From NCBI GenBank assembly GCA_018110825.1, contig JAGBCL010000031.1:98846-162845 (forward strand): a DNA stretch of 64,000 nucleotides, read 5' to 3'. Under the pieces are notes generated by a model. It saw only the letters and a program-made list of their open reading frames with translations, searched no databases and was not told the DNA's origin. This document shows positions 23,339 through 26,633 of the stretch, one piece after another; position 1 is the first letter of the stretch, and every line of letters begins with the position of its first letter. A program made the position numbers and the translations under genes. The stretch comes from Oscillospiraceae bacterium (GTDB lineage: Bacteria > Bacillota > Clostridia > Oscillospirales > Ruminococcaceae).

Positions 23339-24022
23339 TTACTTAACAAGCTTAATTTTGTCCATTGAAGCGAAATTTCTGTTAGTGTAGTAGCCGTCAT
23401 CAGTTACCTCTCGGACAATTTCCACGAAATCGGGCATTTCAACTGACGTACTTTCTTCAGGAAGCTCTGCCTCCATAATTCCGAAGCCGCTTTCAACAGT
23501 ATTTTCGAACACATCAAGTTCAAATACAAGTGTACCGACAGGAATAATATGTCTGCGTTTCTTTATTACATTTAATATAGTATGTTTCTGTAATTCAGCG
23601 TACTCCGCTTCGGTAATTTCCCGTTCATTTTCGATTCGGGACATGCTGCTGCCGGTGCGTGCTTTTTCGGTGTAGATGAACTTGTCATCCCATCGGCGTA
23701 TGCGTCCCTGAAAACCGTTTGCGGGTTCAAGATAAGCCTGCTCGATATAATGCGATTCATACTTGTCAAGACCATCCGGAATTTTTACCAGCCAGCGTCT
23801 TTCAATTTCAAGAAAAATCAGCTTTCCGCCACGTTTGTTAATCATCTCATTGCTGTAAAAATCGTTCTCTGTAATTTCAGCAATAACCTCAAAACCGAAA
23901 GTTTCACCATTGCTTTCAAGAATTGCAGCATTTTTCTCATTTTTGTAAATCTTTATGCGGTAACCCTTGCCGTCGCCAAGGTCATAAGGATATTTTATCA
24001 GAAACTTTCTTGTGTAAGCCAT
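23339..24022 (-). CDS. CYTH-domain protein with N-terminal extension
   Basis: CYTH phosphatase-like protein of 227 residues. The tunnel-fold signature ExExK is seen as EIERRWLVK near 74. Alternating basic and acidic strands follow: RIRRWD, EKARTG, ENEREI, KKRRHI, FELDVF and EAELP. CYTH proteins hydrolyse inorganic triphosphate or organic triphosphates such as thiamine triphosphate. The first 70 residues are extra relative to a minimal CYTH protein and resemble a short beta-rich domain with MAYTRKFLIKYPYDL at its start. The ATG has GAGGAGGTTG upstream. Confidence 0.8.
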   Translation of the reverse strand: MAYTRKFLIKYPYDLGDGKGYRIKIYKNEKNAAILESNGETFGFEVIAEITENDFYSNEMINKRGGKLIFLEIERRWLVKIPDGLDKYESHYIEQAYLEPANGFQGRIRRWDDKFIYTEKARTGSSMSRIENEREITEAEYAELQKHTILNVIKKRRHIIPVGTLVFELDVFENTVESGFGIMEAELPEESTSVEMPDFVEIVREVTDDGYYTNRNFASMDKIKLVK

Positions 24023-24084
24023 TGCGGCAACCTCCTCAGACAGTAAAATGGGGTACGTTTCAGTACCCTTTATATTTCAGCTAA

Positions 24085-24113
24085 ATTATAGCATATAACG
24101 TTATTATTTGCAA
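24085..24113 (-). promoter_or_regulatory. Promoter of the CYTH gene
   Basis: On the minus strand TTGCAA (24108-24113) and TATAAT (24085-24090) have 17 bases between them. A GGGTAC/GTACCC hairpin (24052-24069) follows in the leader. Confidence 0.7.
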
Positions 24114-24228
24114 CATCAGTATAAATTAATTGTCCTTGATGAAAGCCAAAGAGTCAATTTTGTATAAAATCGCACACAAACGTTCGATAAGTTTGTGCAG
24201 AAAATCGAACAAAATTTTCAAAAAAGCC

Positions 24229-24290
24229 TTGACAAATGAGAACAGGTGTTCTATAATATAAAACAGAACAAACGTGCAGAACAAATGTGC
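24229..24290 (+). promoter_or_regulatory. Promoter with LexA-type operator array
   Basis: TTGACA (24229-24234) and TATAAT (24252-24257) are 17 bases apart. The spacer contains GAACAGGTGTTC (24240-24251), a perfect match to the Gram-positive SOS core GAAC-N4-GTTC. Two further sites, GAACAAACGTGC (24266-24277) and GAACAAATGTGC (24279-24290), each differ from the core by one base. All three starts fall on multiples of 13 bases. Repression by LexA is a strong inference; LexA itself is not in the window. Confidence 0.75.
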
Positions 24291-24332
24291 AATAGCGCAG
24301 AGAAAAAAAGATGCGCCGAAAGGATTTTAATT

Positions 24333-24590
24333 ATGACAACTTCCAATGCAAGAAAACTTACCACTGAAAAGAATATCACAATGACAAGCCGTGTTGTAAG
24401 AAAAAATAACCTTATGATGCAGAAGCTGATAGGTGTAATAATGCTTGTGCTTGTGGCCGTATCTTTTGTAATCGGCGGATATTTTGTTGCATCGGCTGTA
24501 ATTGCACCGTTTGCATTTGTAGCGGTTTTTTCAAAGGAAAAAGTGCTTGATTTCGGTATTTTTTCAAATAATGTAAGATATTATAAATAA
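24333..24590 (+). CDS. Small membrane protein, probable SOS-induced
   Basis: Unrecognised 85-residue protein. Residues 1-30 are basic and hydrophilic; residues 31-67 form one long or two short membrane helices with Gly near the middle; a short polar tail follows and ends in NNVRYYK. The ATG at 24333 has GAAAGGA eight bases upstream and lies about 70 bases downstream of the LexA-type promoter. In many Firmicutes small membrane proteins under LexA control (for example YneA in Bacillus) block cell division during DNA damage. This one lacks a LysM domain, so a division-inhibitor role is only a hypothesis. Confidence 0.7.
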   Translation: MTTSNARKLTTEKNITMTSRVVRKNNLMMQKLIGVIMLVLVAVSFVIGGYFVASAVIAPFAFVAVFSKEKVLDFGIFSNNVRYYK

Positions 24591-24623
24591 TGTGTCGGAT
24601 TTCTTGTTGCATAAAAAATATTT

Positions 24624-24652
24624 TTGAGTTATAATTGAAATATGAAAAATTT
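24624..24652 (+). promoter_or_regulatory. Promoter of the lipoprotein/VanY pair
   Basis: Within 24610-24650, TTGCAT and TATAAT are separated by 17 bases (AAAAAATATTTTTGAGT). It precedes the lipoprotein start by about 55 bases. Coordinates are approximate to a few bases. Confidence 0.5.
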
Positions 24653-24700
24653 CACCCCCTTAAATTGTATTTATTATGAATACGGTATGGGAGGAATTAT

Positions 24701-25594
24701 ATGAAAAAACATTTTTTATTGACGGCAATTTCCACGGTGCTTATCCTGACTGCCTGTGGAAACAATCAAAATAGTACAGCCGAAACATCAGCAGCAACAT
24801 TTGTGCAAACCTCAGAAACAACATTTAACAGCATTACCGAAATGACAGTCCCCGCATTTGTGCCTGAATGGGAGGAAACGGAGGTTACAACTCCTGCCTA
24901 TGTACCTGAGGAAGCACCGCAGACAACCGCTTATGTTGAGTCAACTTCATTGATGACGGAAGCTGTTTTTTCGGAAACTACTATCCAGATAACTGAATTT
25001 ACCACCGCAGTTCATACAGAGGAGATTACAACCTTTGAGGAAGCAGAGGATTTTTTCTTTGAAGCATATGTTTATGATGTTGAAGAAAATGCTGTCCTTG
25101 TGGGAATGAAGGGCGATACATTTATTGGACCCGACGGTACAGATGTCTATATTTTCGGCAAGTATGACGTTGAAAAGGGCGATACTGTCGAGATAGTTTT
25201 TACCGAGGAAGTCGGAATTGACGATTTTTATCCCCTCGAAATCAGGGAACAATTTATCGTAAGTCTTGAAAAAGCTGAGTATGCACAGGACTATGATTTG
25301 CCGTATGACAGCGGGGAGTACGATATACCTGAGGTTGAACTTGCTGGAAACGAGCATGTTGCTTACATAACAGATACTTCTGAGAACAAGAACGGCGGAT
25401 ATTCACTTATTGTTGAGGCCTATGACATTGCGGGATATTATTCTCCCGTATTGATTTCACTTTACAGTGAAATTGAATTTTCCGTCGGGGATTGGGTAAA
25501 GATTGAATTTATGCCTGAAACCTGCTTTATGGAAACATCTCCTTTGCAGGTCGCAAAACAGGATGTTGTTGGAATTGAACTGATTGATTATTGA
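24701..25594 (+). CDS. Thr/Glu-rich lipoprotein of unknown function
   Basis: 297-residue lipoprotein: signal peptide with lipobox LTAC (Cys at 19). Then comes a low-complexity Thr/Glu/Ser stretch to about 115 that probably acts as a wall-spanning spacer. The second half repeats a beta-rich unit (VYDVEENAVLVGMKG and VEAYDIAGYYSPVLISL, each followed by a GDTVEI/GDWVKI segment), resembling two small beta-barrel folds in tandem. Function unknown. GGGAGG precedes the ATG. It ends 22 bases before the VanY-type gene, which has the same lipobox-plus-spacer design, so they may act together at the cell wall. Confidence 0.75.
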   Translation: MKKHFLLTAISTVLILTACGNNQNSTAETSAATFVQTSETTFNSITEMTVPAFVPEWEETEVTTPAYVPEEAPQTTAYVESTSLMTEAVFSETTIQITEFTTAVHTEEITTFEEAEDFFFEAYVYDVEENAVLVGMKGDTFIGPDGTDVYIFGKYDVEKGDTVEIVFTEEVGIDDFYPLEIREQFIVSLEKAEYAQDYDLPYDSGEYDIPEVELAGNEHVAYITDTSENKNGGYSLIVEAYDIAGYYSPVLISLYSEIEFSVGDWVKIEFMPETCFMETSPLQVAKQDVVGIELIDY

Positions 25595-25616
25595 TTGCCG
25601 TCAGGAAAGGCAAGGA

Positions 25617-26633
25617 ATGAAAAAATATATTACTGTTCTGCTTGCATTGTTTATCTTTGCAGGCTGTGAAAAAATAATTGATGAACCTGCTTTGGCAACT
25701 CTTCCGCCAGAGTCTATCACGCAGGCGGAAGTTCTTACACAGACAGAGAATACCGTCCCTGAAATTATTACCGAGCTTACGGATGAAACAACTGAGAATT
25801 CTGAAACTGAAGCTGCAGTTGAAGTCGGCGGAGATGTTGAAAATCCCACGGAAGCAATTGACGTCGAAAGCATTTCTCTTAGTTTCTATGAAGTAACCTT
25901 GCAGGTCGGCCAAAGTAAAATGCCGCTTGTGACTATGTTTCCCGAAAATGCAAGCGACAAAAGTGAAATTTGGACAACAAGCGATGAAACAGTTGCAAGC
26001 GTTGACTGGCTTGGAAATATCAAAGCTTTATCCGAGGGTAATTGCGTGGTTACGGTTACATCGGCACAGAATACTGACGTGTCCGCAAATGTTTTGGTTA
26101 CCGTAGTTGCGGGACCCCAGCTTACATATATTGACGGAATTCTGATTGCAAACAAAACTTATGCCCTTCCTTCCGATTATGCTCCGGGAGTTAACGCTGA
26201 GGCGGAAGCTGCATTCTATGAAATGCAGGCTGATGCTTCAGATTTGGGGCTTAACTTGTATATTTCGTCCGGATATAGAAGTTATGATTATCAGGCAGGA
26301 CTTTATCAGCGTTATGTTGACCGAAGCGGCAAAGCGGAGGCTGACAGATATTCTGCACGACCGGGACATTCCGAGCACCAGACGGGACTTGCTTTTGACC
26401 TGAACACAATAAGTGACGAGTTCAAGGATACCAATGAGGGAAAATGGGTTGCGGAAAACTGCCATAAGTACGGCTTCATAATTCGTTATCCTGAGGATAA
26501 GGAAAGCGTGACGGGTTACATGTATGAGCCGTGGCATATACGTTATCTTGGTGTAGATACAGCAACTGCCGTTTATGAAAGCGGTCTGTGCCTTGAGGAA
26601 TACCTTGGAATTACTTCGGAATATGATGAATAA
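25617..26633 (+). CDS. VanY-type D-alanyl-D-alanine carboxypeptidase lipoprotein
   Basis: Peptidoglycan D,D-carboxypeptidase (M15B) that trims the terminal D-Ala. It has a lipobox (FAGC, Cys at 17), a Thr/Glu-rich spacer to about 80, a bacterial Ig-like (Big_2) domain at about 85-165, and the catalytic domain. The zinc motifs are SARPGHSEHQTGLAFDL, which carries SxHxxGxAxD, and EPWHIRYLG, which carries ExxH. Length is 338 residues. The ATG at 25617 is chosen over upstream in-frame codons because AAGGAAAGGCAAGG lies just upstream and it begins a proper signal peptide. No vanS/vanR or vanH/A/X genes are nearby, so vancomycin resistance should not be inferred. Confidence 0.9.
   Translation: MKKYITVLLALFIFAGCEKIIDEPALATLPPESITQAEVLTQTENTVPEIITELTDETTENSETEAAVEVGGDVENPTEAIDVESISLSFYEVTLQVGQSKMPLVTMFPENASDKSEIWTTSDETVASVDWLGNIKALSEGNCVVTVTSAQNTDVSANVLVTVVAGPQLTYIDGILIANKTYALPSDYAPGVNAEAEAAFYEMQADASDLGLNLYISSGYRSYDYQAGLYQRYVDRSGKAEADRYSARPGHSEHQTGLAFDLNTISDEFKDTNEGKWVAENCHKYGFIIRYPEDKESVTGYMYEPWHIRYLGVDTATAVYESGLCLEEYLGITSEYDE

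Follow-up and report, generated by a model that had tools for sequence, protein, structure and literature searches.

Division arrest in published SOS regulons is brought about by small membrane proteins that are specific to their lineages, as set out in the parts of two reports drawn on here (PMC13396833, PMC6851548). The SOS division inhibitor YneA of B. subtilis is controlled by LexA, acts on the divisome through its membrane segment and binds FtsW; the proposal that such proteins share this target draws in part on low-confidence models (PMC13396833, in part). SosA of S. aureus, also under LexA control, is a 77-residue protein without a LysM domain that spans the membrane once, has an essential extracellular C-terminus and is encoded beside lexA (PMC6851548, in part). 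DinQ of E. coli is a LexA-controlled toxic membrane peptide of 27 residues with a single span; its gene carries two LexA operators and is subject to control by an antisense RNA (PMC3567139, in part). The LexA motif itself is GAAC-N4-GTTC in B. subtilis and GAAC-N4-GTTT or GTTC in C. difficile (PMC4234289, in part).

The locus analysed here belongs to a known kind, the LexA-controlled small membrane protein, and what is new is its predicted topology together with an operator array that differs from those described. It resembles yneA in encoding a small membrane protein that is, by sequence comparison, under LexA control; YneA, however, crosses the membrane once and carries a LysM domain on the outside, whereas two spans and no LysM domain are predicted here. 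The lack of LysM is shared with SosA, from which the protein differs in that its C-terminus is predicted to lie inside. With dinQ the locus shares probable LexA control and multiple LexA-type sites, but no antisense RNA was found in the searches of the locus given below. Genes of the YneA/SosA type adjoin lexA, whereas in this genome lexA lies on contig C87 and the gene of interest on C18, and no YneA-type gene was found beside lexA in the locus examined (L006).

The window, that is the whole stretch of 64,000 nucleotides analysed, comes from an assembly of 124 contigs totalling 3.1 Mb, with a completeness of 96%. On its plus strand, a -35 box TTGACA (24229–24234) and a -10 box TATAAT (24252–24257) match the sigma-70 consensus at all 12 bases and stand 17 bp apart, so that the promoter TTGACA-N17-TATAAT spans 24229–24257. 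The first-pass annotation had placed a perfect GAAC-N4-GTTC between these boxes and one-mismatch copies at starts 24266 and 24279, and all three are present on the plus strand: site 1, GAACAGGTGTTC, lies inside the spacer at 24240–24251; site 2, GAACAAACGTGC, at 24266–24277, near the expected transcription start; and site 3, GAACAAATGTGC, at 24279–24290, 13 bp after site 2. The spacings of 26 and 13 bp place these three sites on a 13-base grid, as had been claimed. The description as a three-site array is right for these three and too small for the whole, as two further sites also score with the matrix described below: an upstream LexA-like site, GAACAAAATTTT, at 24207–24218 on the plus strand (10.4 bits), and a weak LexA-like site on the minus strand at 24174–24185 (ACACAAACGTTC on the plus strand, GAACGTTTGTGT on the minus; 8.8 bits), a counterpart of which is found at -66/-67 in three related loci (L008–L010). 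The array precedes a plus-strand open reading frame of 85 codons (24333–24590, ATG at 24333, stop at 24588–24590), hereafter the hairpin gene, and a putative ribosome-binding site, AAAGGA, can be read at 24319–24324, 8 nt 5' of the ATG; similar AAAGGA or AGGA motifs occur in the relatives. The leader also contains a short stem, GCGCA/TGCGC, at 24294–24317 just 5' of the ribosome-binding site; the stem recurs in L008 and L009. Downstream (24701–26633) lie a lipoprotein-like gene and a gene for a VanY-type carboxypeptidase with a Big_2 domain, and one or both have look-alikes downstream in L058–L060.

Single boxes with at most one mismatch are no commoner in the window than chance predicts (24 observed against 26.0 expected), and therefore only clustering and conservation carry weight. 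Triplets of the observed density did not occur in 60 first-order Markov windows. For scoring, a 12-bp matrix was trained on 32 boxes that related genomes carry at recA, at Y-family polymerase genes and at radical-SAM repair genes, without any box of the hairpin gene; its possible maximum is 19.9 bits. As the training boxes had been spotted by likeness to GAAC-N4-GTTC (at most one mismatch) or, for 12 of the 32, by a promoter pattern, the matrix is independent of the hairpin gene but not of the motif. Among 63,989 positions, site 3 ranks first (14.2 bits), site 2 third (11.5 bits), the upstream site at 24207 fourth, site 1 sixth and the weak site at 24174 tenth; a counter-point is that site 1, at 9.4 of the possible 19.9 bits, is the weakest of the three in this genome. 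When the 12 promoter-pattern boxes were removed, sites 3, 2 and 1 ranked 1, 11 and 16, and a matrix made from the recA boxes alone ranked them 3, 8 and 7. Of the 13 window positions at 8.5 bits or more, five fall within 117 bp. Over 200 second-order simulated windows the mean number of such positions was 18.9, against 13 in the real window, and no simulated window held more than three scored sites per 130 bp, a count reached in 2 of the 200. An RNA element made up of sites 2 and 3 was considered and rejected, the leader folding no better than shuffled sequences (z -0.86); taken with the palindromic halves, which are kept while the centres vary, this favours DNA operators.

Homologues were collected by protein and not by promoter. 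A protein search of 61 genomes returned one in 17 of the 21 genomes of the same genus. A profile search of 396 genomes of the family matched 13 (six of the same genus, four of a second genus, one of a third and two that were dropped), and a broader profile raised the second genus to five of six genomes. Across 391 genomes of the class, where a limited number of candidates per genome was scored, the broader profile matched only the source genome and one further candidate that was dropped. The total is 23 homologues (17, 5 and 1 in the three genera). The first-pass annotation had proposed looking for LexA sites ahead of such homologues, and every one of the 23 carries the promoter with its operator array: TTGACA-N17-TATAAT is preserved throughout, its spacer holding site 1 (with no more than one mismatch in 21 and with two in the other 2), a site follows at +24 to +27 in all 23, the 13-bp spacing is kept in 22, and a scored site lies between -23 and -35 in 20. 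The independent matrix finds three to six LexA-like sites in each promoter, four in 15 of the 23, with the usual places near -32, 0, +26 and +39. Protein identity drops to 23–28% in the other two genera, and the array is still kept there. The neighbouring genes differ among 14 relatives, the closest ones excepted, and the promoter and hairpin gene therefore form a unit. All 14 of these loci are from metagenome-assembled genomes labelled Oscillospiraceae, Clostridia or Ruminococcus, and eight carry the source labels goat, deer or 'Lapin'.

The genomes of the same genus in which no homologue was found are G005, G012 and G020, which are 55–78% complete, and G013, and in the second genus it is G167. 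As G013 and G167 are near complete (96% and 98%), the hairpin gene is dispensable. Several candidates were set aside as homologues: L024 (E 5e-4), which is part of a 1528-residue open frame with no boxed promoter; L082 and L083, in frames of 444 and 174 residues, both without boxes; and L091, in a frame of 517 residues. A second match in G381 (L089, E 1.4e-5) was likewise left out, having no promoter with a box. It has a two-helix appearance like that of the hairpin protein, of which it may be a distant paralogue, and had no match among phage or plasmid records.

Both LexA and RecA are present in the source genome, in which a single LexA-type DNA-binding domain was found; the protein that carries it matches TIGR00498 at 184.7 bits (cut-off 110.95). 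In all nine genomes of the genus that were examined, recA has a box just 3' of its -10 element, which reads GAAAAAATGTTC in seven genomes, GAATAAATGTTC in one and GAAAGAATGTTC in one (one hit of the recA search, L049, was left out at 27 bits because its sequence is not RecA). The presence of the same type of box at recA in nine of nine genomes makes LexA very probably the regulator. Of the 27 perfect GAAC-N4-GTTC sites in the source genome, 15 were inspected; 11 are inside open frames, and the four outside them include the array and a site in the promoter spacer of a radical-SAM gene (L039, 136–1452). Over its first 80 residues the product of this gene scores 127.4 bits against TIGR03916, which describes a radical-SAM protein with a putative part in DNA modification/repair (a fragment score, below the whole-protein cut-off), and boxed promoters of this family occur in the source genome and in another genus (L132, identified by a 110-residue fragment matching TIGR03916). 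Homologues without LexA sites, and a LexA of this species that recognises a different motif, had been named as grounds for refutation; neither refuted the reading, given the arrays at all 23 homologues and the motif at recA in nine of nine genus genomes and, elsewhere in the family, at Y-family polymerase genes, a recA and a radical-SAM gene.

A promoter with a LexA-like box in its spacer was matched in 88 of the 396 family genomes, and in none of the control counts listed. Seventy loci behind this pattern were examined (L092–L161), 30 picked automatically and 40 chosen with preference for exact matches and GAAC. SOS-type genes occupy 12 of them, namely ten Y-family polymerases (eight confirmed by Pfam; L143 and L144 named by likeness), one recA, also confirmed by Pfam, and one radical-SAM gene. 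Many of the other loci lead to genes that have no known link to SOS, and a box is missing altogether from some, so the pattern also catches ordinary promoters. Within one genome, G065, a polymerase gene (L140) and a hairpin gene (L077) both lie behind boxed promoters. The nearest match in layout is found at polymerase IV-type genes of the same family (L141–L144), which have three boxes with at most one mismatch around the promoter, one of them in the spacer as here; the box spacings there are 23 and 25–27 bp, against 26 and 13 bp at the hairpin gene. Box pairs exactly 13 bp apart were absent from 142 other loci (366,863 bases), many of which are not SOS genes.

The survey brought several other gene groups to light. 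Open frames of 40–61 residues stand behind promoters with LexA-like boxes at L103, L104, L123, L125, L127, L135, L145 and L146; their products are apparently soluble and partly alike, and L135 is in G013, the 96%-complete genus genome named above in which no hairpin gene was found. Genes that resemble, by eye, sigma-factor region 4 or helix-turn-helix proteins follow LexA-box promoters in several genera (L120, L128–L131, L136, L137 and L149). In G201, a gene that looks by eye like a serine recombinase occurs at three near-identical places (L111, L158, L159) with promoters reading TTGACA-GAAC-N4-GTGC-TATAAT, perhaps a case of SOS control of a mobile element. G370 has 16 promoters of the spacer-box pattern, eight per strand (e.g. 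L117, L151–L156), with unrelated genes downstream; most of those examined carry TGTGCTATAAT, and the pattern there may reflect another regulator or promoter style.

LexA is commonly autoregulated. No GAAC-N4-GTTC box was observed in the 300 bp upstream of lexA in nine of nine genomes (L006, 1495–2070, and L050–L057). Upstream of the preceding gene, which resembles murC, site scores peak at 7.3 bits in the source genome and at 8.3 to 11.0 bits in four others, and these top sites are AT-rich and not alike, with no clear conserved box in the five genomes (L192–L196). LexA may lack control of itself in these genomes.

Overall, the arrays in 23 of 23 homologues, the ranks given by the independent matrix, the recA boxes and the single canonical LexA all count for LexA control, and we consider it highly likely, as far as comparison of sequences can tell, that the hairpin gene is under LexA. 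The missing box ahead of lexA and the low score of site 1 speak against it. The gene would, under LexA, very probably be a DNA-damage response gene. The array and the recA boxes support the LexA half of the first-pass interpretation; the likeness to YneA that it also drew is a functional analogy at best, the predicted topology being different.

The hairpin protein is small and very hydrophobic, and its reading frame is under purifying selection, as judged from dN/dS ratios of 0.11–0.27 across ten pairs (one with saturated dS), so that the protein is constrained. AlphaFold2 modelling with 22 sequences predicts two helices, at residues 28–47 (codons 24414–24473) and 51–66 (codons 24483–24530), with pLDDT of about 80–88 in the helices and 69.6 overall; with 17 sequences the same helices are predicted at an overall pLDDT of 61.6. 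Net charge is positive N-terminal to the helices in 22 of 22 sequences, and over the final 12 residues of that part in 21 of 22; the loop has no net charge or a negative one in 21 of 22, and the segment that follows helix 2 has a charge of at least zero in 21 of 22. From this charge pattern both ends should lie inside, and the protein is predicted to form a membrane hairpin with both ends cytoplasmic. Twelve residues are invariant in the 17 members of the genus: M1, I15, L27, Q30, G34, P59, A61, A64, F66, S67, K70 and F77. The protein had been described as having no LysM domain and belonging to no known family, and the searches agree: no Pfam family, LysM included, reached its curated cut-off, NCBIfam gave nothing better than E 0.016, matches in PHROGs (best E 0.046) and in PADLOC (best E 0.012) were all weak, and among PDB chains none matched with an E value of 1 or below. 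The Pfam match to Podoplanin (best E 0.00027), with 20.4 bits for the hairpin protein itself, falls short of the cut-off of 30 and was taken as chance.

The following sequence of events is proposed. LexA bound to the spacer, start-site and flanking sites would hold a perfect promoter shut, the extra sites lowering the leak of a promoter that needs no help. On DNA damage, RecA would trigger self-cleavage of LexA and the sites would empty; the freed promoter would then give a burst of a short message carrying the hairpin gene alone, and we infer in this way that the gene is induced by DNA damage. In the membrane the product would form a hairpin of two helices whose ends both face the cytoplasm. 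It would bind a larger membrane protein, which most likely belongs to the cell-wall or division machinery, and act as a checkpoint effector, holding back division or growth until the damage has been repaired. The whole statement, that of a LexA-locked SOS gene encoding a hairpin checkpoint effector which delays division or growth, is given a probability of roughly 0.45. The protein is most likely a lineage-specific SOS membrane effector, and its role in arrest, put forward by analogy, is held at slightly under even odds. Arrest is the best single guess given that LexA-run small membrane proteins inhibit division elsewhere and that no YneA-like short LysM gene was recognised in nine genomes of the genus, in which all 33 LysM matches fall in open frames of at least 236 residues (a very divergent one could be missed). 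The lack of a match to any catalytic family in Pfam or NCBIfam also counts for this role. Counted against it are the absence of an extracellular part, which YneA and SosA need, and the dispensability of the gene, with no hit in G013 and G167.

The strong promoter under several operators and the small, very hydrophobic product would also suit an SOS-induced membrane toxin of the TisB/DinQ kind, in which ion-leaking hairpins lower the membrane potential and bring on dormancy, and heavy repression would protect growing cells from it. TisB is a single-span peptide with an antisense RNA. DinQ, the LexA-controlled precedent with two operators, has a single span and an antisense RNA likewise (PMC3567139, in part), whereas two helices are predicted here. 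Promoter-like sites on the minus strand in 24000–24720 were absent from the leader and from the region downstream of it, the only ones being upstream of the leader at 24157–24129 and 24113–24085, and no Rfam family was detected in 23900–24900; an antisense RNA could be encoded elsewhere. The conserved residues in the N-terminal part and in the tail after helix 2 are, moreover, more than a pore would need, and the toxin reading is judged unlikely. Those same conserved cytoplasmic ends on a predicted hairpin, with no enzyme family match, could instead point to a small regulatory subunit that tunes a transporter, protease or other membrane enzyme during SOS while growth continues. The variable neighbours mean that its partner would be encoded elsewhere, no particular partner is indicated, and such heavy repression would in our judgement be unusual for a harmless subunit; we regard this role as somewhat doubtful.

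It is highly improbable that the protein belongs, as a holin-like pore for SOS-triggered release from the cell, to a domesticated phage or a bacteriocin module. Its size and predicted topology, with two spans and both ends inside, resemble those of two-span holins, but no relative was confirmed among 32 pattern stretches on viral contigs, the window protein had no match among phage records, the neighbours vary in the 14 relatives and no lysis genes were recognised by eye among the open reading frames listed. A phage or plasmid origin was rejected on the lack of a phage match for the window protein, of a phage or plasmid match for L089 and of a confirmed viral contig. Control by a different repressor with a LexA-like motif, in which case the gene would answer a signal other than DNA damage, is very unlikely. 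The lack of a box near lexA would fit this, as would the right halves of sites 2 and 3, which read GTGC or GTAC in most relatives, and a mismatch in the left half of the recA box; the recA, polymerase and radical-SAM boxes nevertheless share the palindrome, often at the same place in the promoter, and the genome yielded only one LexA-type domain. The checkpoint effector under LexA control remains our preferred reading.

In the first two of its three parts, a COG-based survey of SOS regulons in the gut from 2014 mentions no protein of this kind (PMC3998124). Searches of the open-access literature returned no paper on LexA regulons in Ruminococcaceae or Oscillospiraceae, on LexA and small membrane proteins in Ruminococcus, or on two-span SOS division inhibitors. 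We tentatively raise the possibility, to which we give less than even odds, that the protein stands for a class of SOS effector not described before, consisting of a membrane hairpin alone with no extracytoplasmic domain, that would act within the membrane to halt division or growth, replace YneA in a branch of gut Oscillospiraceae and lie locked behind a conserved array of several LexA sites, among them a tandem operator pair at 13-bp spacing. To our knowledge, little is known of how division stops after DNA damage in Clostridia outside a few models. With its heavy and conserved LexA control, simple predicted shape and few invariant residues, the hairpin gene offers a direct test case, and the conserved 13-bp operator pair provides a natural system in which to see how a pair of LexA dimers is accommodated on sites that nearly touch.
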